Below, one piece after another: positions 2,081 to 49,246 of a DNA stretch of 53,312 bases. The DNA comes from Bacteroidota bacterium (lineage in GTDB: Bacteria > Bacteroidota > Bacteroidia > 2-12-FULL-35-15). Every line of letters starts with the position of its first letter. Position 1 is the stretch's first letter. A program made the position numbers and the translations under genes. The notes beneath the pieces are model-generated. The model made no database searches. It saw only the letters and a list, made by a program, of their open reading frames with translations, and was not told the DNA's origin. Location of the stretch: positions 1 through 53,312 of the forward strand of contig CANJYB010000028.1 of the NCBI GenBank assembly GCA_947479085.1, read 5' to 3'.

Positions 2081-3136
2081 TTGAAAAAAAAATCAATTCT
2101 TAAAGAGTGGGTTACGGCCATATCGCTTGCATTGGTTACCATACTGGTTATTCGTGTTTTCTTTTTCGAAGCATTCACCATTCCTTCGCCATCCATGGAG
2201 AAATCATTGCTTACGGGGGATTATATAATAGTGAGTAAATTAAGTTACGGGCCCCGCATACCCAATACTCCGCTTTCTTTTCCATTTGTTCATCAGAAAT
2301 TGCCTTTTACCGAAAACACCAACTCGTTTGTCAACTGGATTAAAATACCTTATCTCCGCCTGTTTGGTTCACCATCTGTTAAAAGAAATGATGTGGTAGT
2401 TTTTAATTATCCTATGGAAGAGGAATATCCGGTAGACCAGCGAACCTATTATGTAAAAAGATGTGTTGGCCTTTCCGGAGATACCCTGGAAATAAGAAAA
2501 GGGCAGGTGTACATTAATAATGAATATACGGATGTACCTGAATTATTGCAGTTTAATTATAAAGTGCAATGCGACCGGGATACCATACAGTCGGACACAT
2601 TGGTAAAATGCGGCATCACAGAAGGAGGGAGGCTACGCAATAAAGGAGAATACTGGTTTAATTTAAACCTCGAAAATGCAGAACTGATAAAGCACCTGCC
2701 ACACGTTACCAAAACAGAGCCATTACTTGAAAAGAAAGGCACTTACCTGGATTATATGTTTCCATCCAGCGAAAACTTTTTGTGGAATGTCGATTATTTT
2801 GGCCCCATTTATATTCCTAAATCTGGCGATTCGGTAAAGCTTACCTTGGATTCACTTCCTTTGTACGAACGCATCATAGCGGTTTACGAAAAGAATGATT
2901 TAAAGGTAAGAAACGATTCGATATTTATTAATAACATATACAGCAAGTCGTACACTTTCAAAATGAATTACTTTTTTATGATGGGCGACAACCGTCATAA
3001 CTCCACCGATTCACGTTTCTGGGGTTTTGTTCCCGAAGACCATGTGGTTGGAAAAGCTGTTGGTATTTTATTATCTATTGACAAATCAAATGGTTCGCAT
3101 TTCAGAAGCGGAAGATGGTTTAAGGGGGTTAAATAG
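2081..3136 (+). CDS. lepB: Signal peptidase I
   Basis: Membrane-bound serine/lysine protease that cleaves Sec signal peptides on the periplasmic side. An N-terminal membrane segment (about residues 11-30) precedes the catalytic motif IPSPSME with nucleophile Ser38. The general-base motif is YVKRCVGLSGD with Lys126. The C-terminal box MGDNRHNSTDSRFWGFVP is intact. At 351 residues it is longer than enterobacterial LepB because of an insertion between the Lys box and the C-terminal box, which is usual in Bacteroidota. The start is TTG (TTGAAAAAAAAATC); no better in-frame ATG precedes the membrane segment. In this phylum lepB commonly sits beside wbqC; here a repeat-bounded four-helix-bundle gene separates them. 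A near-consensus -7 element (CATCTTTG) lies about 25 nt upstream. Confidence 0.95.
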   Translation: MKKKSILKEWVTAISLALVTILVIRVFFFEAFTIPSPSMEKSLLTGDYIIVSKLSYGPRIPNTPLSFPFVHQKLPFTENTNSFVNWIKIPYLRLFGSPSVKRNDVVVFNYPMEEEYPVDQRTYYVKRCVGLSGDTLEIRKGQVYINNEYTDVPELLQFNYKVQCDRDTIQSDTLVKCGITEGGRLRNKGEYWFNLNLENAELIKHLPHVTKTEPLLEKKGTYLDYMFPSSENFLWNVDYFGPIYIPKSGDSVKLTLDSLPLYERIIAVYEKNDLKVRNDSIFINNIYSKSYTFKMNYFFMMGDNRHNSTDSRFWGFVPEDHVVGKAVGILLSIDKSNGSHFRSGRWFKGVK

Positions 3137-3324
3137 TTAATAATTATGAGTTATGAATTATAAGTTATGAGTGATAGCATTATTAATAATTATGAGTTAT
3201 GAATTATAAGTTATGAGTGATAGCATTATTAATAATTATGAGTTATGAATTATAAGTTATGAGTGATAGTATTATTAATAATTATGAGTTATGAATTATA
3301 AGTTATGAGTGATAGCATTATTAA
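3137..3324 (+). repeat. 46-bp tandem repeat built on TTATGAR heptamers
   Basis: A 46-bp unit recurs with exact spacing: ATGAGTGATAG begins at 3167, 3213, 3259 and 3305. The fourth occurrence is the start of the four-helix-bundle gene. Each earlier unit encodes a short frame, MSDSIINNYEL then stop, so the gene's first six codons are present four times. Inside every unit are phased heptamers TTATGAG-TTATGAA-TTATAAG-TTATGAG. The only difference noted between copies is one C-to-T change near 3270. The array starts directly after the lepB stop codon. Confidence 0.93.
3142..3165 (+). repeat. Left 24-bp terminal inverted repeat of the four-helix-bundle element
   Basis: Bases 3142-3165 (AATTATGAGTTATG ... 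AAGT) are the exact reverse complement of 3711-3734. The two copies bracket the small gene at 3305-3667, giving an interval of about 590 bp with inverted ends. Confidence 0.85.
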
Positions 3325-3667
3325 GAAGAAGAGTTTTGAATTTGCAGTTAGAGTTGTGAATTTATATAAGTTATTAATTACTGACCGAAAGGAATTTGTA
3401 TTGAGTAAGCAACTTCTTCGTTCAGGAACTTCTATAGGTGCAAATGTTCGGGAAGCAATAAATGCTCAAAGTAAATCAGATTTTATTCATAAGTTTTCTA
3501 TTTCTCAAAAGGAATGTGATGAAACAATCTATTGGCTTGAATTACTTAAAGAAACTAAATACATAAGTGAAATTGAATTTGAAAGTTTAAATGGAGATGC
3601 TGTTGAACTTTTGAAAATAATAAGAAGCATTATAATAGCAACAAAAAAAAATAGTAAAGAGTTATGA
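3305..3667 (+). CDS. Four-helix bundle protein of the S23 / 23S rRNA intervening-sequence (IVP) family
   Basis: This 120-residue protein matches the family by its signature LLRSGTSIGANVREAINAQSKSDFIHKFSISQKECDETIYWLELL (written here only in part: RSGTSIGANVREA, SDFIHKFS, KECDETIYWL). Known relatives are encoded in 23S rRNA intervening sequences of Leptospira, and the Avd accessory protein of diversity-generating retroelements shares the fold; Avd binds nucleic acid and reverse transcriptase. There is no reverse transcriptase here. The start ATG and first six codons belong to a 46-bp tandem repeat, and the stop codon TGA at 3665-3667 lies inside the first heptamer of the downstream array. The gene interrupts lepB-wbqC. 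The cellular role is unknown; a mobile or parasitic nature is my inference. Confidence 0.85.
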   Translation: MSDSIIKKKSFEFAVRVVNLYKLLITDRKEFVLSKQLLRSGTSIGANVREAINAQSKSDFIHKFSISQKECDETIYWLELLKETKYISEIEFESLNGDAVELLKIIRSIIIATKKNSKEL

Positions 3668-3739
3668 ATTATGAGTTATAAGTTATGAGTTGTTAAACTC
3701 ATCAGCAAAGACTTATAATTCATAACTCATAATTCATAA
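3662..3739. repeat. Inverted pair of TTATGAR heptamer arrays after the four-helix-bundle gene
   Basis: Four phased heptamers on the plus strand (TTATGAA, TTATGAG, TTATAAG, TTATGAG; 3662-3689) are followed by a 22-nt spacer and four in the opposite orientation (CTTATAA, TTCATAA, CTCATAA, TTCATAA; 3712-3739). The two halves could pair as a long imperfect hairpin. The gene's stop codon is part of the first heptamer. The outer 24 bp (3711-3734) match the left end at 3142-3165 as an inverted repeat. Confidence 0.9.
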
Positions 3740-3747
3740 CTAAAAAA

Positions 3748-15399: not shown

Positions 15400-18087
15400 A
15401 TGAAAAAAGCTACCCTCATTACTGCACTGTTATTAGTAGGTGCCACTTATACCAATGCCCAGGTATTTCTGAAAAACAAAACCGGCAAAGCTCAGTCGTT
15501 CAAAGAAATGCAAATACAGTTTGATAACTGGGCCCGCAAAACCGATTTGAAACATACCAAACACTGGAAATACTTTAAACGCTGGGAAAACGAAATGGAA
15601 ATGCACCTGGACGGAAAGGGCAATCCCGGAAATCCTGCCATATATATAGATGCAGCAGTAAAAGCAGCGAATGAAAAAAATGCCAAGCGTTCCGAAAAAT
15701 TTCTTCGTTCGGCATGGTCGCCAGTAGGGCCTTACACATTGCCCGGAAACCTTACCGGATACATGCAAAACGGAATAGGCCGTATCAATTGCATAGCTTT
15801 TCATCCTACTAATCCTTCTACTTATTTTATAGGAGTGGCACAGGGCGGAATGTGGAAAACCACCAACAATGGTTCAAGCTGGACACCTCTGACCGATAAC
15901 CTGCCAATAGAAAGAATAAGCGACATCTGCATCGACCCTAATAATCCCAACACGATGTACATTTCCGTTTGCGATTTCGAATACATAGATGTGGCGCTAA
16001 ACCTCGATGCCCGCAAGCGCCATACACATTATGGTTTGGGAGTTTATAAAACCACCGATGGAGGTACCACCTGGAACCCTACAGGACTGACCTTTCAGCT
16101 GACCAACGGAGATGCTTCTTTAATAAGAAAAATAATGGTGAACCCCGCCAACAGCAATAATGTGATAGCCTGCGGAGTAAGCGGTATGTACACTTCTACT
16201 AACGGAGGCACCACCTGGAACCATCCGCTGGACTCACTGTTCTGGGATTTGCAGCAAGACCCAACCAACCCTTCCACATTATATGCCACCACCGGTTGGT
16301 TGCAGTTTCAGAACATCGGCTCCTGCGGCATTTATAAATCATTGGATTTTGGAAACACCTGGACCCTGCTGAACACCGGCATTCCGGCTACCGGCATCAT
16401 TCAGCGCATCAGAGTGGCAGTAGCACCTTCCGATCATAATTATGTATATGCCATGACAGTGGGCACGGACGAAGGTTCGGCAGGTATATATAAATCTATA
16501 GATGCCGGACTTACCTGGAACTTCATTGACCCCGGGGTGAACATGCTGGAAGGCGGAGATGGCTCAGTGGCAGGCGGACAGGGAACTTACGACCTTGGGT
16601 TCAGCGTTAATGCCAATGATAAAAACACGGTGTATGTGGGTGGTGTAAACATCTGGTGTTCTACCGATGGTGCACAGTCGTTTAACCCCGTTAGTCATTG
16701 GACTTTGCAGTATGGCCCTACTTTACACGGAGACATTCATTTTATAGAAACACAACCCGCTACCGGAAGCATATTTGTATGCAGCGATGGCGGACTTTAC
16801 CGCACCAATTCTATTACACCACAAACCTGGAACGATGCCAATAACGGCTCACCATGGCCTACCCAATGGACCACCATCAGTGACGGGATGAACATTACTT
16901 CCTTTTATCGTTTATCCAGTTCGCGAAATTTCACCGACCGACTGGCGGCAGGAGCACAGGACAATGCTACTTTTTATTACGATGGAACTGCCTGGAATAC
17001 CATATTTGGCGGAGATGGAATGGATAACTATTGCGACCCGGTAAACGATAATGTGGTGATAGGTTCGGCCCAGTATGGTAACTTTTTTGTTTCCAATGAT
17101 GGCGGATTTTCTGACATCGGGGCCAATGTAAATGTAAACTTTGAGGCAGGTGAGTGGGTATCGCCCATTATTGCTGACTATAATAATCCCGGAACCTTGT
17201 ATGCCGGATTTACCAATGTTGCCAAATCAACAGATGGAGGGTTTAACTGGTTTCCGCTGAATCCATTGCCGACTAATGCTATTCACGACAATGAAATTTC
17301 TGCTCTGGCTGTTGGTTATAATAATACCAATGTGCTGTACGCAGCGCGAAGAATACGGTTTGAGTACAATACACCTTCTTCCATCGATGTTTCACAAAAC
17401 GGGGGCAACAGCTGGACCGACATTACAGCTGGCCTTCCGGATACATTATACATTACAGGAATAGATGTAAGTCAAACCAATGCCAGCGTAGCATTTGTAT
17501 CTCTGGCCGGTTTCAGCAGCGGAAACAAAGTATTTAAAACCATCAATGCCGGTGCCACCTGGATCAATATTTCTTACAACCTGCCAAACATTCCTGTTAA
17601 TTGTATCAAGACAGTGCCCGTAGCAGGAGACTTAATGATTGCAACCGACCTTGGTGTATATGTATTGGATGCCGCCAATAATACCTGGGTAAGCCAAAGC
17701 ACAGGTTTACCAAATGTTATCATTTCGGATATTGAGTTTAATCCGGTTCTGGATAAAATATATATTTCTACTTTCGGAAGAGGCATCTGGGAAAACACCT
17801 TGTCCTCCTTGGTAACCAGTGTTGCAAAACCAACCGCCACCGAAATAGGAGTGGAGCTATATCCTTCTCCTAACGATGGAAACTTTACGCTTCATCTTAC
17901 CGATTCCAATTCAAAAGATGAATTATTGAGCCTTGAAATTGTTGACATTATGGGCAGAACAGCCTTTACTGCTAACCTTACCGGACAAACCACTTATCAG
18001 GAAAAATTAAATCTTTCTCCGGGAATGTATTTTGCAAAAATAAAAAGCAAAAAGCTGAATGGAGTGAAGAGTTTTATTGTGAAGTAA
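15400..18087 (+). CDS. T9SS-secreted BNR / sortilin-like beta-propeller protein
   Basis: An 895-residue secreted protein. The signal peptide is MKKATLITALLLVGATYTNAQ. The body contains many BNR/Asp-box repeats (GMWKTTNNGSSWTPL, GVYKTTDGGTTWNP, GIYKSIDAGLTWNF, VAKSTDGGFNWFPL, KVFKTINAGATWIN), as in VPS10/sortilin and glycosyl-hydrolase-like propellers. The C-terminus (GVELYPSPNDGNFTLHL ... GMYFAKIKSKK ... SFIVK) is a type A T9SS sorting domain. No catalytic residues of a sialidase are evident, so adhesion or binding is as likely as hydrolysis. A strong terminator follows at 18142-18176. Confidence 0.9.
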   Translation: MKKATLITALLLVGATYTNAQVFLKNKTGKAQSFKEMQIQFDNWARKTDLKHTKHWKYFKRWENEMEMHLDGKGNPGNPAIYIDAAVKAANEKNAKRSEKFLRSAWSPVGPYTLPGNLTGYMQNGIGRINCIAFHPTNPSTYFIGVAQGGMWKTTNNGSSWTPLTDNLPIERISDICIDPNNPNTMYISVCDFEYIDVALNLDARKRHTHYGLGVYKTTDGGTTWNPTGLTFQLTNGDASLIRKIMVNPANSNNVIACGVSGMYTSTNGGTTWNHPLDSLFWDLQQDPTNPSTLYATTGWLQFQNIGSCGIYKSLDFGNTWTLLNTGIPATGIIQRIRVAVAPSDHNYVYAMTVGTDEGSAGIYKSIDAGLTWNFIDPGVNMLEGGDGSVAGGQGTYDLGFSVNANDKNTVYVGGVNIWCSTDGAQSFNPVSHWTLQYGPTLHGDIHFIETQPATGSIFVCSDGGLYRTNSITPQTWNDANNGSPWPTQWTTISDGMNITSFYRLSSSRNFTDRLAAGAQDNATFYYDGTAWNTIFGGDGMDNYCDPVNDNVVIGSAQYGNFFVSNDGGFSDIGANVNVNFEAGEWVSPIIADYNNPGTLYAGFTNVAKSTDGGFNWFPLNPLPTNAIHDNEISALAVGYNNTNVLYAARRIRFEYNTPSSIDVSQNGGNSWTDITAGLPDTLYITGIDVSQTNASVAFVSLAGFSSGNKVFKTINAGATWINISYNLPNIPVNCIKTVPVAGDLMIATDLGVYVLDAANNTWVSQSTGLPNVIISDIEFNPVLDKIYISTFGRGIWENTLSSLVTSVAKPTATEIGVELYPSPNDGNFTLHLTDSNSKDELLSLEIVDIMGRTAFTANLTGQTTYQEKLNLSPGMYFAKIKSKKLNGVKSFIVK

Positions 18088-18095
18088 AAGAAGAC

Positions 18096-18130
18096 AGATG
18101 GAGGATGTTTGATGTTGGATATTTGATGAC
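18096..18130 (+). repeat. Heptamer array after the BNR-protein stop codon
   Basis: Five phased 7-mers AGATGGA, GGATGTT, TGATGTT, GGATATT, TGATGAC begin 8 nt after the TAA at 18085-18087. They belong to the same TGGATGT-type class, in the same gene-sense orientation, as the array at 18311-18359. Confidence 0.75.
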
Positions 18131-18141
18131 GAAATATGTAT

Positions 18142-18176
18142 AAAAAAAGCCTTGCAGTATGCAGGGCTTTTTTTTT
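18142..18176 (+). terminator. Intrinsic terminator of the BNR-protein gene
   Basis: A-tract, then AAGCCTTGCA / TGCAGGGCTT stem (one G-T pair) with a 3-nt loop, then nine T residues. This is a classic rho-independent terminator 54 nt after the stop codon. Confidence 0.88.
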
Positions 18177-18189
18177 GTGCGCAGCAATT

Positions 18190-18215
18190 CCCCTCTAGAG
18201 AGGGGTTAGGGGTGT
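18190..18215. repeat. G-rich palindromic intergenic element (copy 2)
   Basis: CCCCTCT (18190-18196) and AGAGGGG (18199-18205) arms are followed by TTAGGGGTGTG. It has the same design as the element at 1933-1972. Confidence 0.55.
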
Positions 18216-18221
18216 GTTTAA

Positions 18222-18300
18222 TTTATTGCGATTCGCCATGGCGAAGAAGCAATCAGTTTAAAAGAAGTGCAGAGATTCCTTCGTTCCTCGCAATGACGAA
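18222..18300. repeat. REP-like interspersed palindrome, degenerate copy A
   Basis: The right half AGATTCCTTCGTTCCTCGCA (continuing ATGACG, 18273-18298) and the core TTTAAAAGAAGTGCAGAGATT are shared with copy B at 18911-18982. The left arm is altered and contains a perfect 14-bp palindrome TTCGCCATGGCGAA (18232-18245). The two copies lie in the same orientation on either side of the gene at 18365-18862. Confidence 0.75.
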
Positions 18301-18310
18301 CTTAATTTGC

Positions 18311-18359
18311 ACATCCAATATCTAACATCCAACATCCAACATCTAACATCCAATATCCG
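18311..18359 (-). repeat. Heptamer array at the 3' end of the 18365-18862 gene
   Basis: Seven phased 7-mers on the plus strand: ACATCCA, ATATCTA, ACATCCA, ACATCCA, ACATCTA, ACATCCA, ATATCCG. Read in the sense of the minus-strand gene these are TGGATGT/TAGATGT units. The array begins 5 nt beyond the stop codon. Confidence 0.88.
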
Positions 18360-18364
18360 ACCTT

Positions 18365-18862
18365 TCAAAACTTCTGATCATATAATTCAATTGCTTTCCG
18401 CTTGTATTTCATTCTTCGGTATTTAAAAACACCTGAAGCCACAGGGCAGGCAACAGCTAAAACTAAACACGTTCCGGCTATTGCATTCAATTTTTTATTT
18501 TCTGCTTCATGGGAAGGTGGCACATACTGCAGATACATGGCACCTGGAGATGGTGGAGCATTATTTTGCTTAATTTTATTCAGGCATCCCCATGTTGCTA
18601 TGACTAATGGAATAGCCAAAAATCCTATCAATTGTGAATTATGCGAACGATTTGAAATACGTGCAAGTCTCATTACCTCTTTATCTCCCGAAGCACTTAA
18701 AACGTTCATCATTTTCAATTCTCCGATAGTTTCACCTCGGTAGAGGTATGAATTTTCGCCAAAATAATATATTTTATTATCTTTTTTTACTAAACTATCC
18801 TGAGCATTTGCAATAGTAGAAAACAAAGGAAATGAACCAAGCAGAATTAAAAACAGCTTCAT
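18365..18862 (-). CDS. Small exported membrane protein, unknown function
   Basis: This 165-residue protein has a signal peptide (MKLFLILLGSFPLFSTIANAQ) followed by a short polar domain with a YYFGENSYLYRGETIGEL segment. Two further hydrophobic segments are present (LIGFLAIPLVIATWGCL near 98-114 and LNAIAGTCLVLAVACPVASGVF, in part, near 126-147). The C-terminus is basic. I do not recognise the family. It lies alone between two copies of a REP-like palindrome and has a heptamer array at its 3' end. Confidence 0.7.
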   Translation of the reverse strand: MKLFLILLGSFPLFSTIANAQDSLVKKDNKIYYFGENSYLYRGETIGELKMMNVLSASGDKEVMRLARISNRSHNSQLIGFLAIPLVIATWGCLNKIKQNNAPPSPGAMYLQYVPPSHEAENKKLNAIAGTCLVLAVACPVASGVFKYRRMKYKRKAIELYDQKF

Positions 18863-18910
18863 GTTTTATTTTTATTTAGTCGATATTCATCAGGCATTTT
18901 TTAGTTGCAT

Positions 18911-18982
18911 CGTCATTGCGAGGCACGAAGCAATCTGTTTAAAAGAAGTGCAGAGATTGCTTCGTTCCTCGCAATGACGAAC
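18911..18982. repeat. REP-like interspersed palindrome, copy B
   Basis: Two 26-bp arms, 18911-18936 (CGTCATTGCGAGG ...) and 18954-18979 (... CCTCGCAATGACG), are inverted repeats with one mismatch around a 17-nt loop. This is a widespread type of imperfect-palindrome intergenic repeat. Translation across it gives HCEARSNL ... IASFLAMTN, a known source of spurious ORF calls. Confidence 0.88.
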
Positions 18983-19036
18983 TCACTACTCATCAGTCAT
19001 CGGACATCCGTCATCCAACATCCGTCATCGGACACT
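18981..19036 (-). repeat. Heptamer array abutting the M42 peptidase stop codon
   Basis: Eight phased 7-mers on the plus strand: ACTCACT, ACTCATC, AGTCATC, GGACATC, CGTCATC, CAACATC, CGTCATC, GGACACT. The last base (19036) touches the peptidase stop codon (19037-19039). In the gene's sense direction the units are GATGNNN with recurrent TGA. Confidence 0.88.
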
Positions 19037-19948
19037 TCACAGTTTCTCCATCAACACCTTATACAATTTCGCCATTGCATCAATATCTGTTTTATACACC
19101 TTTTCATCAGGAGTATGCACAAAGTCTTCGGGTGCACCAATGAAACACCAGTCCCAAGGAGCTTCCGCCATTTGCAGTTCCTTGGCATCGCTTCCTCCGG
19201 TTCCTTCCACTTCCAGTTGATAAGGTACTTTCGATTTTTTAGCAATAGCAATTATTTTATCCACATACGATTTGCGGGGAACCAAACTGTCACGCAATGA
19301 AATAACCACCCCTTTGCCATGAGGCACACCGGGTGTAACCCAGGTAATATCAGAAATGATGGCTTGTTTTACTTTGAATTTTTCATAAATAAACTTCTGA
19401 AGATAGGATACACTTCCGCCACCATGTTCTTCCCAACACGAAAAAACAAGTATCCCATCCTTTAATGTTTCAGCTACTTTCAGGGCATTCCAAACGCCAA
19501 GGCGGTTGTCCATATAGCAGCACTGTACATACTCTTTCGTTTCGCGCCAATCGGGTTTAAAAGTAAGTTCAGTACCTCTTACCAGTTCGCGTTTGTATTT
19601 ATAAGTAATGTTGTTTTCCTTATCCACAGAAAGGGTACATTCTATTTTTCCTTTTTCATCCTTGCCCACCAGTTCAAAACCATCTACCGTTCTCGGCCCA
19701 CCGATTTTTACCAGTTCTTTGCCATACCGCACCGTAAACCCGATACTGTCAATATGAGCAAACACAGCAGTTCTTGGTTTCCCGAAAACCAATACTATAC
19801 AATCCTGGAAACCATCACCTGAATAAACGGTTGGTTTATGTTTCCATTTCTTTTTGTTCTTATCAATGTAGTTCAACAGGAATTTAGTCATTGGTGCTTC
19901 ATTGCCCGATGGAGCATGAATGGCGCACATTTCTTTTAATAGTTTCAT
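19037..19948 (-). CDS. M42-family metallo-aminopeptidase
   Basis: This 303-residue dinuclear metallopeptidase is of the M42/M28-like fold (FrvX/YsdC/tetrahedral aminopeptidase type). Candidate metal ligands and catalytic residues appear in order: AHIDSIGF (His65, Asp67), CYMDNRLGVW (Asp147), CWEEHGGGS (Glu173/Glu174), ISDITW (Asp200) and the C-terminal FVHTPDEKV His. The N-terminal HAPSGNE motif is typical of the family. It trims N-terminal residues from peptides in the cytoplasm; no signal peptide is present. Its stop codon abuts a heptamer array. Confidence 0.87.
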   Translation of the reverse strand: MKLLKEMCAIHAPSGNEAPMTKFLLNYIDKNKKKWKHKPTVYSGDGFQDCIVLVFGKPRTAVFAHIDSIGFTVRYGKELVKIGGPRTVDGFELVGKDEKGKIECTLSVDKENNITYKYKRELVRGTELTFKPDWRETKEYVQCCYMDNRLGVWNALKVAETLKDGILVFSCWEEHGGGSVSYLQKFIYEKFKVKQAIISDITWVTPGVPHGKGVVISLRDSLVPRKSYVDKIIAIAKKSKVPYQLEVEGTGGSDAKELQMAEAPWDWCFIGAPEDFVHTPDEKVYKTDIDAMAKLYKVLMEKL

Positions 19949-19994
19949 AGTTGCGGATAACGGATTATTACGAATTTACTAATTATATTTATAC

Positions 19995-20113
19995 TTATTA
20001 CTCAATACTCTCTACTCATTACTCATTACTCACTCCTCAATACTCTCTTCTCAATGCTCATTACTCACTACTAACTATTAACTATTAACTATTCACTATT
20101 AACTATTCACTTC
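19995..20113 (-). repeat. 17-unit phased heptamer array overlapping the YigZ stop codon
   Basis: Starting at 19995 the plus strand reads in strict 7-nt register: TTATTAC, TCAATAC, TCTCTAC, TCATTAC, TCATTAC, TCACTCC, TCAATAC, TCTCTTC, TCAATGC, TCATTAC, TCACTAC, TAACTAT, TAACTAT, TAACTAT, TCACTAT, TAACTAT, TCACTTC. In the sense of the minus-strand gene these are TGAGTAA, TTAATAG, TGAATAG and similar. The last unit contains the YigZ stop codon (20107-20109) and its final codons. This is the longest array in the window and fills the 158-bp gap. Confidence 0.9.
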
Positions 20114-20712
20114 TTTTTCAATTCAAGATTACTCATTTTATTAAACATCTCCTGCACTTTTGATGAATTATTTTTTCGAACTTCAAAAACAAGTGAACAG
20201 GTCAGTTCAAAGTTTTGCGATTTTATTTCCAGGTGTTCATCCTTTATAATTTTCATCACATCATTCATCTGCAGGTAATCAAACTGCAGTTCGAAACGCT
20301 CCGTTACTATTTTTTCTATAATTATGGAATTGGTAAGAGCTTCAGCAGCAGCTAGTTTATACGCATTAATTAAACCACTTACCCCGAGCAATGTTCCACC
20401 GAAATAACGAACCACTACAATTAATATATCGGTCACATCCTTGCTTTGCAGTTGCCCCAGTATAGGTTTTCCGGCAGTGCCGGATGGTTCACCATCATCA
20501 TTGGCCCTGTATACTAACTTTTCGGCACCCAGCCGGTAAGCATAACAATGGTGTCTTGCACTATGATGTTCCTTTCTTAAATCGGCCTGGTGTTTTTTTA
20601 TTTCTTCCTCAGTAGAAACAGGGAAAGCATAGGCAATAAATTTACTGCCCTTGTCTTTATACAAACCCTGGCTGGGTTTGGAAATGGTTAAATAGGTATC
20701 CTCTGCACTCAT
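20107..20712 (-). CDS. YigZ / IMPACT-family protein
   Basis: A 201-residue protein of the YigZ (UPF0029) family: an N-terminal domain with KGSKFIAYAFPVSTEEE, HHSARHHCYAYRLG, the hallmark NDDGEPSGTAGKPIL and VVRYFGGTLLGVSGLINAY, then a C-terminal RNA-binding-like ferredoxin fold. The eukaryotic relative IMPACT regulates Gcn2; the bacterial role is unsettled. I start at the ATG ending at 20712 (MSAEDTYL), which gives the usual family length; an upstream start at 20766 would add a non-conserved 18-residue tail. The stop codon lies in the heptamer array. Confidence 0.85.
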   Translation of the reverse strand: MSAEDTYLTISKPSQGLYKDKGSKFIAYAFPVSTEEEIKKHQADLRKEHHSARHHCYAYRLGAEKLVYRANDDGEPSGTAGKPILGQLQSKDVTDILIVVVRYFGGTLLGVSGLINAYKLAAAEALTNSIIIEKIVTERFELQFDYLQMNDVMKIIKDEHLEIKSQNFELTCSLVFEVRKNNSSKVQEMFNKMSNLELKKK

Positions 20713-20852
20713 GGCTGCAAAACTACTAATTTGCCAAAACGAATGGAAAAACTTTTTGTTTTCCAATGGATTGTGTTAAAAGATTATTGAAAAAATATTT
20801 GTTTTTATTTAATAGTTAATTTACTTTAGCTGAAAATTTAATAACATAACCA

Positions 20853-22389: not shown

Positions 22390-22397
22390 TACTTTTG
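22390..22397 (+). promoter_or_regulatory. -7 promoter element immediately before prmC
   Basis: TACTTTTG matches TAnnTTTG and ends only 6 nt before the ATG at 22404. If used, transcription would begin at or very near the start codon, giving a leaderless or near-leaderless mRNA. It also argues against translation from the TTG at 22395, which lies inside it. Confidence 0.55.
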
Positions 22398-22403
22398 CAA
22401 CTT

Positions 22404-23288
22404 ATGAAAATTGCTTCCAATAAAATAGCGGATATTATTCGTTATTTCAGAAACGAACTAAGTGCCGGTTATGAAAAAGAGGAACTGGATACCATAATGG
22501 CCTGGTGTTTCGAGGAGTTTGCAGGTATTAAAAAACATGAACTGAATATTCAGACAGAAAGAACAGTAAGCGAATCGCAATTGCTTAAATTTAATTTTGC
22601 AGTAAAAGATTTAAAGCAACACAAACCCATTCAGTATATTTTAGGTAAGGCAGATTTTTACGGAATGCAGTTCTTTGTTAATTCAAATGTACTAATTCCC
22701 CGCCCGGAAACGGAAGAATTGGTTGATTTGATAATAAAAGAATTTCAAATTCCAAATTCCAAAATTCAGAATCAATCGGTTAATATACTTGATATTGGAA
22801 CCGGCAGCGGATGTATTGCCATTGCTTTAAAAAAACACATTCCATCAGCTAAAGTAGTTGCTTTAGATATTTCGGAAGAAGCATTAAAGGTAGCCGGACA
22901 AAATGCCTTATTAAACAATGTGCAGATCAATTTTCTTCAGGACAATATTCTTCATCCGTCATCCGTCATCGGACATAACTCCTTCGACATAATTGTCAGT
23001 AACCCACCTTACGTTTGTATTTCTGAAAAAGATGAGATGCAAAAAAATGTATTGGATTATGAACCGCATTTGGCATTATTTGTGGAAGACAGCAACCCCT
23101 TATTGTTTTATAATGCCATAGCTGATTTTGCTTTAACACATCTTAATAGAAACGGGAGATTATATTTTGAAATTAACGGGATGTATGGAGAGGAGACGAA
23201 GCAGTTGATGGTAGAAAAAGGATTTAAAAATATTGAACTGAAAAAAGACTTAAATAATAAAAATCGTATCTTGCGAGGTGAGATTTAA
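22404..23288 (+). CDS. prmC: Peptide chain release factor N5-glutamine methyltransferase, with repeat-derived linkers
   Basis: A 294-residue class I SAM methyltransferase that methylates the GGQ glutamine of RF1 and RF2. It has the N-terminal helical domain (KPIQYILGKADFYG, VLIPRPETEEL) then SAM motif I (ILDIGTGSGCIAI) and the catalytic SNPPYV. Two linkers are encoded by heptamer repeats: residues about 113-121 (FQIPNSKIQ, from AATTCCA units) and 184-192 (HPSSVIGHN, from CATCCGT/CATCGGA units). Both are in loops where extra residues are tolerated, and the frame is intact. I use the ATG at 22404 rather than the TTG at 22395. A TonB-like gene follows 12 nt downstream. Confidence 0.93.
   Translation: MKIASNKIADIIRYFRNELSAGYEKEELDTIMAWCFEEFAGIKKHELNIQTERTVSESQLLKFNFAVKDLKQHKPIQYILGKADFYGMQFFVNSNVLIPRPETEELVDLIIKEFQIPNSKIQNQSVNILDIGTGSGCIAIALKKHIPSAKVVALDISEEALKVAGQNALLNNVQINFLQDNILHPSSVIGHNSFDIIVSNPPYVCISEKDEMQKNVLDYEPHLALFVEDSNPLLFYNAIADFALTHLNRNGRLYFEINGMYGEETKQLMVEKGFKNIELKKDLNNKNRILRGEI
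22741..22768 (+). repeat. Heptamer array inside prmC (first)
   Basis: Four phased 7-mers AATTTCA, AATTCCA, AATTCCA, AAATTCA encode part of the linker before SAM motif I. Confidence 0.7.
22953..22976 (+). repeat. Heptamer array inside prmC (second)
   Basis: CATCCGT, CATCCGT, CATCGGA plus CAT. These are the same unit types, on the same strand, as in the array at 18981-19036, but antisense relative to the gene they sit in, so no stop codon is introduced. They encode HPSSVIGH just before the FDIIVSNPPYV motif. Confidence 0.85.
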
Positions 23289-33654: not shown

Positions 33655-36600
33655 TTAATCTTTCATGAATTTCATTCTCACTACATCTGTTCCTTCGCTT
33701 ATTTCAAGGAAATAAAAGCCGGATGCTTGTTCAGCAATATTTAATGTAAATGAACTTCCGTTCAGGTTTTCTTTTTTCATAATCACCTGTCCGGTTAATG
33801 TCATAAGTTTAACAGAGAAATCAGTTAAATTCCTTTTTGCCGAAATAGTTATTTGTTTATCAGCAGGATTAGGATATAAAGCAACCATGTTTGCAAAACT
33901 ATTGTCTGAAATACCTGTAGTGGTAACATTGGTACAAACTGAAGTATCAGTGCAGGTATTCATGGTAACGATAACTGCGTAATCTCCATTTGAAGTTGCT
34001 GTAAACACTTGGTTAATTTCGTTAGGAATAACAGCATTGTTATTTCCACAATCTACCCATTGATAAGTAGCTCCCATCTGGTTTGCACTTATTACATTCC
34101 CATTGGCAGTAACAGTATTATCAATGTTATCGATGGTAAGGTTTAAAGTAAGCGTTGAATCACAACCTGCAGCATTGGTGAATTGTTGCGTATATGTTCC
34201 GCTGGTTGTATACGTTTGTGCATTCAAAGTATAAGAAGTACAAGCTGATTGGGTAAGTGAAGAGCTACTTGTATTATTCACATAAAATGTATATACCAGA
34301 CTGGTATCATTAGGGCTGCAGGTACCACTTACCACACAACGGTACATATACATGTTTTCTGAAACAGTTGCTGCGGTCAGGTTTAGTGTATTGGTGGTTT
34401 CATTGCTGTAAATTCCTCCTGTAGCATTTGCATAACTTGCTCCTCCATTTGTACTTACTTCCCATTGATACGCCAAACCTGTTCCTGTTGCAGTAATAGC
34501 AAACGAAGCATCATTTCCGGTGCAAATAGTCATGTCTGTTGCATCTAAAGTGATGGCAGGTGCGGTATTAACAGTTAACATTTTCGCTGTAGAAGTAACA
34601 GCAGGAATGCAAGTACCTGTTACAATGCACTGATACATATTTCCGTTTTCAGCAGCAGTAGCACCTGTTAAATTAAGTGTTGCAGTAGTTTCGTTACTGT
34701 AAATTCCACCGGTAGCACTTGCATAAGAAGCACCACCATTGGTACTTACTTCCCACTGATAAGTTAAGCCTGTGCCTGTCGCAGTAATGCTGAATGATGC
34801 ATTATCTCCTTCACAAATAGTCATGTCACTTGCATCAACAGTTACAAGTGGTGCAGTGTTAACTGTTAACATTTTTGCAGCGGATGTTACAGCAGGACTT
34901 CAAGTACCTGTTACAATGCACTGATACATATTTCCGTTTTCAGCGGCAGTTGCACCGGTAATAGTTAGTGTTGCAGTAGTTTCGTTACTGTAAATTCCTC
35001 CCTTAGCACTTGTATAAGAACCACCACCATTGGTGCTTACTTCCCACTGGTAAGTTAAGCCTGTACCTGTAGCACTAATACTGAAGGAAGCATCATTTCC
35101 TTCGCAAATGGTACTATCCGAAGCTTCCATGGCAATAACCGGGGAAGTGTTTACCGTAAGTGTTTTTGCAGCGGATGTTACAACAGGGCTGCAGGTTCCT
35201 GTTACAACGCATTGATACATATTTCCGTTTTCAGCTGCAGTTGCACCGGTAATATCTAATGTAGCTGTTGTTTCGTTACTGTAAATTCCACCTGTTGCAC
35301 TTGTATAAGAAGCACCACCATTAGTACTTACTTCCCACTGGTAGGTTAAGCCGGTGCCTGTGGCAGTAATACTGAAGGAAGCATTGATTCCTTCGCAGAT
35401 AGTCACATCATTTGCATCAACAGTTACAAGTGGTAAAGAATTGATGGTAAGCATTGCAGCAGCCGAAGTATCGTTCGGACTACAGGTGCCACTTACTATA
35501 CAGCGGTATATGTTTCCATTTTCAGCACTTGTTGGTGCAGTAATGTTTAAAGTATTTGTAGTTTCATTGCTGTAAATTCCACCGGTAGCACTTGTATAGC
35601 TTGCTCCACCATTGGTACTTACTTCCCATTGATAGGTAATATTTGTTCCTGTGGCAGTAATGGTAAACGAACCATTATCACCAGGGCATACTTCAATTGC
35701 CACCGGTTCTAAGCCAATAACAGGAAGTGCATTTACCGTTAAGGTAACTGCTGCTGATGTATCATTGCTTCCGCAGGTGCTCAACGCAATACATCTGTAC
35801 ATATTTCCATTATCGCTGGCAGCAGGGGAGGTAAGGTTTAACGTAGCGGTGGTTTCGTTACTGTAAATTCCTCCTGTAGCAGTGGTGTAAGATGTTCCTC
35901 CATTGGTACTTACTTCCCATTGGTAGCCTGTTGCATCATTTGCAGTAATAGAAAAGGATGTATTAACTCCAGCACAAACAGTCTGGTTAGAAGGGTCTGT
36001 GGTAACCACAGCATCAATAGTTAATAAATCTGCCACTTCAGTAGCAGTTAAAGCTCTGTTATACATACGGAACTCATCTAACAATCCTCCTACAGGAGCA
36101 CCCACATTAGTATTATATCCCATTACTTTAAACGGACCTGTTCCTGATAAAGTTATAGCGGCCTGGGCAACTGTGTTCACCAATACTCCATCCAGATAAG
36201 CCTTTATATTTCCTGCTACAGCATCGTAAACAAATGTGGTAACATGCGGGGCTACGGTAGCTCCTCCGTTTACCAATACATCAGTAAGTGGGCCTCTTAA
36301 AATCCAGTTATTAGCACCCGCCACTCCATTAGTAAAACAACGGAAAGAACCCGCAGTTCCATCTCCGAATATATAGAACAAAGTAGTGCTGGCTGTAATG
36401 TTAGAGGTCCACATGGAAATGGTCCAGGAGCCGGAAAGGCTGGTAGCATACCCTGTGTTCAGGTAATCGCTGCTGGCTGATATTCCTGAGCCAATAAGCG
36501 CTCCCTGACATTGTCCGCTGGATCCGCCTTGTGTAACTCCACCCATAATGGTGGCATTAGTTGTTCCTACAGGAGGAGCACTTGCCATGTTAGGCACAGT

Positions 36601-47900: not shown

Positions 47901-48266
47901 TTAGTTCATGCCGGTAGCTACCCAGCATTCTATTTTTTTAATGGTAGCTGCATCCAGTTGAGCTGCATGGGCAGGCATTTTCGCAAAACCCGGAGACCAT
48001 TTTACAACACCAACTAAATCTCCGTTTTTCCCTGCTCTGTGAAGATCATCCATGTTGGTAAGGTTATAACCTCCTTTTCCGCCTTCACCATGACATTTGG
48101 TGCAGTTCTCTGTCATAATGCCTTTAATATCGAAGGCATAAGTAGGAGCAGGGCCACTGCAATCCATTTTCGGTTTGGTTGAAGTGGTTTCAGTTGGTTT
48201 GTTCGATTTACAGGCAGAAAACATCATTACTGCCATTCCGGATACGATTACGATTGTTTTTTTCAT
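47901..48266 (-). CDS. Small c-type cytochrome lipoprotein
   Basis: This 121-residue protein has a lipoprotein signal (lipobox MFSAC, Cys19), a Thr/Pro/Lys-rich linker and one haem-binding motif CTKCH (55-59). Met97 in FAKMPAH is the likely axial ligand. It should be a mono-haem electron carrier anchored in the envelope. It lies directly upstream of rarA (5 nt) on the same strand, with no functional link apparent. Confidence 0.88.
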   Translation of the reverse strand: MKKTIVIVSGMAVMMFSACKSNKPTETTSTKPKMDCSGPAPTYAFDIKGIMTENCTKCHGEGGKGGYNLTNMDDLHRAGKNGDLVGVVKWSPGFAKMPAHAAQLDAATIKKIECWVATGMN

Positions 48267-48290: not shown

Positions 48291-48377
48291 AGTTTGTAGT
48301 TTGTAATTTGTTGCACTCTGTTCTGCTTACTGGTCACTATTCACTATTCACTATTCACTATTCGCTATTCACTATTC
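48291..48377 (-). repeat. Heptamer arrays over the 3' end of the acyltransferase gene
   Basis: Two types are present. AGTTTGT, AGTTTGT, AATTTGT occupy 48291-48311. Then ACTATTC x4, GCTATTC, ACTATTC run in register at 48336-48377. The second set overlaps the acyltransferase gene: its last four sense codons (GTG AAT AGT GAA) and stop TAG (48365-48367) are made of GAATAGT repeats. The rest of the 98-bp gap shows nothing else. Confidence 0.88.
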
Positions 48378-49246
48378 ACTGGTTTTTTATGTTTCCACCT
48401 TTTATGCGTCCATAGCCAGTATTCAGGTTTTTTAATAATGTCTTTTTCCAGTAAATGATTTATCTCTTCAATAATAAAGCCATAAGGAGTTTCCTGTGGT
48501 TGGTCCGTAACAAGCACCAGGTCCAGGCGATAATGTCCTCTTTTTACTTTATTGATGGTACCATAAATAACCGGATAATTATAATCTTTTGCAAATTTTT
48601 CCACCCCATATTGCATGCCTGTGTCCTGGTTCAGAAATTTCATCCAATAAGCAGATTTAGGGTTAGATGGCGACTGGTCGAACCCGAACACCATGCCTGT
48701 CAGTTTATCTTTATTGGTATCTGCATACCGTTTTGCAGCCTTGGTAGATAACATAATCAATCCGAAACGGCTGCGGGTTTTCTGCATTTTATCATCAAAA
48801 AACTTGTTGGACAAGGGGGTGTATAACCCCACGGCCTTATGTTTTATGCATTGGTCCATACCTACAGCCAGCAATTCCCAGTTATTATAATGCCCCCCGG
48901 CAAAAATCACCGAACGTTTATCATTATAATATTTATCAGATAGTTCGGGGTTGGATACTGTAAACCGCTTCCTTACCTGCCTTTCGGCGATGGTAAATGT
49001 TTTTACGCTCTCCACCACGATGTCGCAAAAGTGCTTATAAAATTTCTGGCATATTTCCTGCACTTCCTTTTCCGATTTTCCGGGAAACGAATTTCGGATA
49101 TTGTTCAATACTACTTTTTTGCGGTAACCGGTTACATAATAAAATATAAAGTACAGAAAATTGGAAAAGCCGTATAAAACAGGGAATGGTAGCAGGGATA
49201 TAGGAATGATAACAAGGTAATACAACAAGAGGTTGAACACAATCAT
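48365..49246 (-). CDS. Lipid A-type acyltransferase (LpxL/HtrB family)
   Basis: A 293-residue inner-membrane-associated acyltransferase. An N-terminal hydrophobic segment (residues 1-40) precedes the catalytic motif HYNNWE (119-124, H-x4-E) and FDQSP later in the sequence. The family adds secondary acyl chains to lipid A; in Bacteroidota relatives may act on other lipids. The C-terminal residues VNSE and the stop codon come from a heptamer repeat array, so the native C-terminus was probably altered by the array. Confidence 0.85.
   Translation of the reverse strand: MIVFNLLLYYLVIIPISLLPFPVLYGFSNFLYFIFYYVTGYRKKVVLNNIRNSFPGKSEKEVQEICQKFYKHFCDIVVESVKTFTIAERQVRKRFTVSNPELSDKYYNDKRSVIFAGGHYNNWELLAVGMDQCIKHKAVGLYTPLSNKFFDDKMQKTRSRFGLIMLSTKAAKRYADTNKDKLTGMVFGFDQSPSNPKSAYWMKFLNQDTGMQYGVEKFAKDYNYPVIYGTINKVKRGHYRLDLVLVTDQPQETPYGFIIEEINHLLEKDIIKKPEYWLWTHKRWKHKKPVNSE

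Follow-up and report, generated by a model that had tools for sequence, protein, structure and literature searches.

What sets tandem 7-nt repeats at the ends of genes? The question is raised by positions 18,096 to 20,113 of a 53,312-nt stretch of contig CANJYB010000028.1 (assembly GCA_947479085.1) from a Bacteroidota bacterium. In this whole stretch, hereafter the window, a first-pass annotation made from the letters alone had listed nine arrays of heptamers, most of them at stop codons. On the strength of comparisons within this genome and with loci of other bacteria, we consider it probable that the arrays are the arms of small one-gene cassettes seated in the stop-to-start gap between co-directional genes. 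A full cassette would comprise tandem 7-mers (sometimes 8-mers) running from the upstream stop codon, one small gene, and a reverse-complement array placed just before the next start codon. The cargo would be mostly a gene of the S23/four-helix-bundle family (23S rRNA intervening-sequence proteins), but also the nuclease-fold GxxExxY family and, once, an FRG gene. A cassette deprived of one arm would be reduced to a single array, as at 18096-20113.

A period scan of the lag-7 autocorrelation type found 13 period-7 segments in the window at a score of at least 10, against none in five Markov shuffles, while no other period between 4 and 13 yielded more than one segment. In the own-genome sample of 853,312 bases (the window and 40 stretches of 20 kb), 38 period-7 segments were counted at score 11; the remaining periods between 4 and 13 had 1–15 each, and the Markov control had one. 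With a base-composition filter, which removed arrays consisting of more than 66% of one base and was also used in the stop, polarity, lone-array-fit and inverted-array analyses, 29 period-7 segments stood against at most 12 for other periods. Two comparison genomes were scanned over 400 kb each: G033 contained 18 period-7 segments and at most 3 at the other periods from 4 to 12, and G087 contained no period-7 array at score 11. These scans bear out both the strict 7-nt register and the existence of several sequence classes that had been claimed for the arrays. The test named at the time as able to refute the idea, namely 7 against 6, 8 and 9 together with the link to stop codons, went the same way on the genome sample, where 7 is commoner and an excess at stops is present.

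The arrays are tied to S23 genes. Each of the seven S23 (TIGR02436) genes of the genome is flanked on both sides by short tandem arrays, detected by scan or by eye, whose class is different at each locus; complementary arms are present at six of the seven, and at one locus (L046) the period is 8. Once all loci were turned to one strand, the array before the gene usually proved to be the reverse complement of the one after it. The survey was widened to 185 fetched S23 loci, of which three without a recognised ORF (open reading frame; L085, L211, L240) and four with too short a flank were set aside, leaving 178, as well as to 40 stretches from relatives, 39 of them usable, and to 16 plasmid loci, all used, out of 32 plasmid records with matches. 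These loci are not a random sample: some scored best in their genome, some were added by hand from further down the hit lists, and others are the top 80 of at least 590; the S23 ORFs were picked by script, some being truncated (e.g., L067, L083, L095), and genes were called as longest ORFs, not by a trained gene finder. Arms were counted as complementary when the two flanks of one locus scored at least 14 against each other, which was the case for 162 of 233 usable loci (115/178 in the first set, 32/39 among the relatives, and 15/16 on plasmids). When flanks from different loci of the first 178 were combined, 6 of 712 pairs passed, and the ordinary genes of the own-genome sample gave 16 of 646, among them three S23 genes, one GxxExxY gene and palindromes of the REP (repetitive extragenic palindromic) type. 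The cross control was high for the plasmid loci (22/240) because several of them share classes.

Unit sequence differs between loci, while the two arms of the same locus match. The best arm period among the 115 armed loci of the first set was 7 in 84 and 8 in 27, and in the 58 loci with an autocorrelation of at least 0.6 it was 7 in 43 and 8 in 14. The upstream arm, with 9% C and 27% G, begins no more than 12 nt from the upstream stop codon in 70 of 110 loci, the median distance from the end of the downstream arm to the next start is 8 nt (n = 104), and both neighbours are co-directional with S23 in 132 of 156 cases, compared with 268 of 512 (52%) for ordinary genes. The carriers belong to many phyla; among those with arms scoring at least 18 are Acidobacteria, Planctomycetales, Verrucomicrobiota, Clostridia, Desulfobacteraceae, Thiohalocapsa halophila DSM 6210 and Ignavibacteriae, with the reservation that several of these are metagenome bins whose taxon labels may be wrong. 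The plasmid loci, 15 cyanobacterial and one from Gemmatimonadota, include Nostoc-type plasmids. On three cyanobacterial plasmids (L412, L414, L421) S23 is located between CRISPR genes, twice cas6/cas4 and once of cas10/Cmr3 type, and at L184 the S23 cassette is flanked by two near-copies of what looks like part of a restriction specificity gene. A search of a phage collection with one S23 protein as query returned no matches at E 1e-5.

Presence at a given junction is patchy. Downstream of lepB, S23 was found in one of 30 genus loci, that of the own genome, and wbqC follows in 27 of the 30; the nearest relative (lepB 82% identical) has a 43-bp gap here with a lone array of another class, and in four other relatives the gap is 18–24 bp. 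The junction between the thiolase and acyl-CoA dehydrogenase (ACAD) genes occurs bare, with an armed S23, with a decayed S23, with an array only, or with other cargo. Pairs of S23 genes at different junctions share their arms in 12 of 18 cases at an identity of at least 70% (about a dozen groups), in 4 of 83 at 60–70% and in 18 of 802 at 50–60%, while same-junction pairs of 40–65% identity share them in 0 of 46, though all counted loci are self-complementary. From these figures it follows that the arms follow the gene in the short term and are rewritten in the long term, the two arms of a locus staying matched. In 17 such different-junction pairs that were inspected, the flanking genes differ wherever both were readable (the upstream neighbour was unreadable in two, the downstream one in one); the pairs L183/L455 and L433/L447 occupy different junctions within operons that appear to be shared (suf and nuo, identified by eye). 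The number of units changes as well, since L170 and L172, whose S23 proteins are 99% identical, have eight and three tandem units, respectively. S23 itself is under purifying selection: among the 14 close pairs for which the ratio of nonsynonymous to synonymous substitution rates (dN/dS) could be computed, 13 had a value no higher than 0.11 and one had 0.46, with several dS values near or above 1.

A scan for inverted period-7/8 arrays that was blind to gene identity, covering 1.65 Mb of three genomes, returned ORF-bearing pairs with S23 (four) and GxxExxY (two) only, along with ten ORF-less pairs with gaps of 13–186 bp, four in the own genome (including window positions 3660-3741) and six in G033. 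A further ORF-less pair, L009:6976-7470, has a gap of 442 bp. GxxExxY loci are armed in 19 of 29 cases versus 13 of 174 in the control at score 14, and in 16 of 29 versus 2 of 174 at score 18, this control being weaker because the loci share a CACAGAG-like unit. The GxxExxY (PDDEXK_3) gene of L027:2144-2645 lies between period-8 ACATAG arms, and similar arms accompany the family in other genomes. Perfect 31-bp AGTATTG arms enclose an FRG-domain gene (L349:2988-4067) at the thiolase-ACAD junction. As a group, the genome's 23 lone arrays agree more closely with the S23 arms of the same genome than with sets of seven drawn at random: their fit was reached in 0 of 500 draws, and in 16 of 2000 when the draws came from the same genus. 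ORF-less hairpins and single arrays look like derivatives of cassettes, and the former could arise by loss of the gene. The longest array of the window, 19992-20113, which takes in the yigZ stop, is probably a single arm; it is unpaired and was found in none of the 26 other genus yigZ loci fetched, four of which (L138, L143, L155, L161) have short period-7 stretches of other classes.

Arrays were regarded as stop-associated when located within −22 to +12 nt of a stop codon. Without the S23 arms, this range held 15 of the 45 intergenic arrays in the own-genome sample versus 17% expected (p 0.006; two more arrays lie inside genes), and with them included the figures were 19 of 55 versus 16% (p 0.0006). 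The genome-wide preference for stops is thus about twofold, and no excess was seen at starts (4/45 versus 19% expected in the own genome, S23 arms removed). The association was not significant in the small samples of G033 (5/20, p 0.22; eight more arrays inside genes) and G087 (3/5, p 0.06). The rule that stands out around the arrays is their polarity: without the S23 arms, G exceeds C in the gene sense in 13 of 15 arrays near stops and the reverse holds in 4 of 4 near starts, against a background of 291 to 340 after stops. Inclusion of the S23 arms gives 17 to 2 at stops and 5 to 1 at starts, with two ties. Upstream arms of at least 21 nt supply stop codons in all three frames in 48 of 101 cases, compared with 18% in shuffles.

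Table 1. Heptamer arrays and associated features of the window. TRF, Tandem Repeats Finder; T9SS, type IX secretion system.
Feature	Positions	Strand	Remarks
Upstream arm of S23 cassette	3137..3342	+	4.5 copies of a 46-bp unit (TRF 95%), four TTATGAR-type heptamers per unit; starts right after the lepB stop (gene end 3136)
Heptamers	3144-3171	+	Within the 46-bp units of the S23 upstream arm
S23/four-helix-bundle gene (23S rRNA intervening-sequence protein family)	3305..3667	+	PF05635 2.2e-28; TIGR02436 1.3e-30
Array overlapping the S23 stop	3660..3690	+	Forms a compact hairpin, as its first arm, with the inverted array 3711-3741 (score 23.5)
Downstream arm of S23 cassette	3711..3742	-	Reverse complement of the 3137-3342 units; score 27 versus 3134-3165; ends 5 nt before the wbqC start (3748)
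Degenerate GATGTTT/GGATGTT array	18096..18130	+	8 nt past the stop of gene 15400-18087, which has a T9SS sorting domain; pairs in inverted orientation with 18313-18358 (score 19.5)
ACATCCA array (GGATGTT in gene sense)	18311..18359	-	About 6 nt past the stop of gene 18365-18862 (-); TRF 6.9 copies
TCATCCG/GTCATCGGACATCC array	18981..19036	-	Adjoins the stop of M42 peptidase gene 19037-19948 (-); TRF 14-bp x 3.1; score 9
Longest array, AGTGAATAGTTAATAG then GAGTATTGAGTAATG in gene sense	19992..20113	-	Includes the TGA stop of yigZ (20107-20766, -); score 41
AATTCCA array	22741..22768	+	Within the prmC coding sequence
TCATCCG array	22952..22976	+	Within the prmC coding sequence
AGTTTGT array (plus-strand reading)	48291..48311	.	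24 nt upstream of the start of cytochrome-like gene 47901-48266 (-)
TCACTAT array (AGTGAATAG in gene sense)	48334..48380	-	Overlaps the stop of lipid A acyltransferase gene 48365-49246 (-); TRF 6.7 copies, 95%

The nine arrays of the first-pass annotation are confirmed (Table 1), although 18096-18130 is weak taken alone (TRF 3.6 copies, 77%); 3662-3739 proved to be two mutually inverted arrays, and 48291-48377 two different ones. What accounts for the pattern, an S23 gene between inverted arrays at 3137-3743, had been recognised there as separate arrays only. Placement at a stop codon holds for seven of the nine; the other two are internal to prmC (22395-23288), which is intact (TIGR03534, 250.7 bits), and some arrays precede starts with the opposite polarity. 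The RNA fold of 3657-3743 has a predicted energy of −35.2 kcal/mol (z −10.4). The best own-genome match of 18311-18359 is an arm of S23 cassette L041 (score 25), and 18981-19036 belongs, by eye, to the same class as the 18096-18130/18313-18358 pair; the three lie after three neighbouring stops. REP-like palindromes (CCCCTCTAGAGAGGGG; CGTCATTGCGAGG...CCTCGCAATGACG) are interspersed with these arrays at 18190-18218, 18225-18301 and 18909-18979, and a tandem repeat of about 291 bp in about four copies is found inside long ORFs at 34397-35661. In the own-genome sample, 21-bp tandem arrays (some with 20 or 22 bp) are the commonest of all periods from 4 to 30, with 77 at score 11 in 853 kb; their unit is private to each locus, some are multiples of 7-bp arrays, and a minority lie in small ORFs, most being outside (e.g., L007:17629-17906, L019:3823-4104, L018:8781-9300, L037:17829-18030).

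Matched inverted arms around a gene could also be explained at the RNA level, as a long stem in the operon mRNA that is cut by RNase III, with S23 binding RNA and the pairing under selection. The arms stand on either side of S23 in the manner of the terminal repeats of rRNA intervening sequences (PMC4990558), the cassettes are oriented in the gene sense, seven ORF-less forms selected by eye are more stably folded than shuffled sequences (z −2.9 to −11.6), and pairing is kept in same-junction pairs despite the turnover of sequence. However, selected pairing in a transcript should favour G.U mismatches over their mirror class, and the counts were 91 to 105 in the arms of S23 and 18 to 21 in those of GxxExxY; ten ORF-less hairpins gave 10 to 10, versus 10 to 0 in the small control of nine distinct tRNAs. 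Selection for an RNA stem as the cause of the matched arms is therefore not supported, and we regard this explanation as unlikely, preferring a DNA-level process such as slippage with copying across the hairpin. Of the roles proposed in the first-pass annotation, a footprint of recombination or slippage pointed the right way; readthrough insulation and mRNA 3'-end structure are, on the same counts, not the simplest choice. A functional 3'-end element of the upstream gene, acting as readthrough insulation, terminator or mRNA stabiliser, would account for the excess at stops and the G-rich sense polarity, but such arrays are missing from most genus relatives at the three junctions compared, occur also within prmC, and form hairpins which, where examined, have no T run after them; we hold it to be highly improbable.

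Plain replication slippage would make heptamers a favoured unit that survives best after stops by supplying stop codons, the link to S23 being secondary. Heptamers are the commonest class in most repeat-rich genomes (Mrazek 2007, as cited in PMC4679880), unit number varies between loci such as L170 and L172, and the three-frame stops in upstream arms agree with such survival. What this leaves unexplained is the inverted and matched arms, the S23 and GxxExxY cargo, and the way arms follow S23 to other junctions. The paired-arm statistics already speak strongly against slippage as the whole explanation; slippage alone is ruled out by the inverted, matched arms, and a version with S23 as a secondary matter appears very unlikely. 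The arrays might instead exist or arise first at junctions as insertion scars, any small gene landing between them and S23 being a passenger. The FRG gene between perfect 31-bp arms (L349), a GNAT gene after arrays (L123; a second matching arm was not searched for) and the gene-less arrays at the same junctions in relatives would agree with this, but the blind scan found only S23 or GxxExxY inside (6/6), and the arms track S23 identity across junctions, which makes such scars quite unlikely.

Several observations weigh against the cassette reading that we prefer. Arms were not detectable at 71 of the 233 S23 loci, and in the own genome the arrays of L047 are direct, not inverted. G087 has 12 S23 matches yet no period-7 array in its 400 kb at score 11, and the inverted-array scan recovered one of the four listed G087 S23 genes lying in the sample, so that it is specific but not sensitive. 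Since many orthologues are included, the S23 loci and pairs are not independent, and the loci were chosen as best scorers, not at random. The GxxExxY and FRG cargo means that the arms are not tied to S23, and the main array, 19992-20113, fits the own S23 arms only moderately (13.5 versus up to 21.5 elsewhere). Neither a target-site duplication nor an excision product came to light, nor did any near-identical pair at two sites; since the arrays start in or beside a stop codon, their edges are too blurred for a duplication to stand out. The occurrence of S23 at one junction in several lineages could reflect old vertical inheritance with fast arm turnover.

According to the cassette reading, the element would move as DNA and land, or survive, between genes in the direction of reading, where co-transcription is possible. 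The arrays may grow and shrink via slippage, and the likeness of the two arms may be kept by copying across the hairpin (template switching) or by a need for a matched pair. S23 would bind the arms and thereby aid the persistence or movement of the cassette; a relative from Xanthomonas whose structure was solved is described as a pentamer (PMC4990558). The S23 gene XCC0516 has a solved structure, 2gsc. The stop codon would be covered because the array starts there, often with stops in several frames.

Neither the heptamer repeats of bacteria nor the S23 protein, both long-standing puzzles, has an agreed function. A link between them would give the repeats a candidate protein and S23 a candidate substrate, so that both become testable through arm binding and cassette movement. 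It also offers a reason why arrays are placed at stops in a single polarity, and suggests cassette cargo as the identity of many genes now annotated as orphan four-helix-bundle or GxxExxY.

Among known systems, the rRNA intervening sequences (IVS) are alike in having an S23 gene between terminal inverted repeats able to form a long stem, and in their patchy distribution; terminal inverted repeats surround S23 at 162 of the 233 loci analysed here. IVS also exist as ORF-less forms. The cassettes differ in lying between protein genes and not in rRNA, in having arms made of locus-private tandem 7- or 8-mers, and in showing no G.U excess, which is mildly against an RNA role of the arms. The window cassette lies between lepB and wbqC, and neither the window nor ten S23 loci with unclear neighbours, the only loci scanned, gave an Rfam match, so that an rRNA location of the cassettes is not supported. 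Avd of diversity-generating retroelements has a related fold; beside the four-helix-bundle gene of the window cassette, whose neighbours are Peptidase_S26 and WbqC, no reverse transcriptase was found. REP elements with their REP-associated tyrosine (RAYT, Y1) transposases likewise combine a small gene between inverted repeats with gene-less copies elsewhere. They differ in that REPs are fixed palindromes and S23 is not a Y1 nuclease, the cargo found here being PF05635 or PF13366. A Y1 (RAYT-like, PF01797) transposase between inverted repeats at L018:6171-6479 is likely a real REP/RAYT case in the own genome.

The heptanucleotide short tandemly repeated repetitive (STRR) sequences of heterocystous cyanobacteria are likewise tandem 7-mers and mainly intergenic, as the present arrays are; in cyanobacterial plasmids such arrays are S23-linked, with 15 of the 16 plasmid loci armed. 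STRR have been described as repeats, and we know of no link drawn between them and S23 cassettes. Rehm et al. 2015 (PMC4692102) describe heptamers of the form GGGNATC in Xanthomonas and Nostoc that lie no more than 50 bp after stops in sense and before starts in antisense orientation, between aligned genes, with many inverted pairs in Xanthomonas and few in Nostoc. The arrays of the own genome have the same polarity, sense after stops and antisense before starts (13/15 and 4/4, or 17/19 and 5/8 with S23 arms). They differ from the single G-rich class of that work, read there as G-quadruplexes, since window units such as TTATGAG, TGGATGT and AGTGAAT contain no GGG tract. The term "four helix" is missing from the main text of PMC4692102, as are "S23" and "four helix" from that of PMC4679880. 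The latter (MacGregor 2015) describes TAACTGA repeats of Beggiatoaceae and some Bacteroidetes that are intergenic, at starts or overlapping stops, and mentions larger heptamer assemblages in some Bacteroidetes; these repeats differ in being one fixed heptamer with a single inverted set in the main genome. The earlier statement that no such arrangement had been described therefore needs trimming, given heptamers at stops and starts in Xanthomonas and Nostoc (PMC4692102) and assemblages in some Bacteroidetes (PMC4679880).

Prior knowledge covers heptamer repeats and the polarity they show at stops and starts, as well as S23 genes flanked by inverted repeats within rRNA. No account of arms built from heptamers private to a locus, enclosing S23 or GxxExxY genes at junctions of protein genes in different phyla, turned up in the open-licence full-text literature searched, a result which cannot prove their absence from print. 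The inverted ends of these cassettes change sequence yet stay matched; to our knowledge, the ends of known transposons do not usually do so. As a tentative generalisation, in which we have rather less belief than doubt, the cassettes could be bacteria-wide mobile one-gene elements restricted to stop-to-start gaps, with private heptamer ends that are rewritten fast yet remain mirrored. They might then be the common source of the heptanucleotide repeats of cyanobacteria, Xanthomonas, Beggiatoaceae and Bacteroidota, with the rRNA intervening sequences as a special case.

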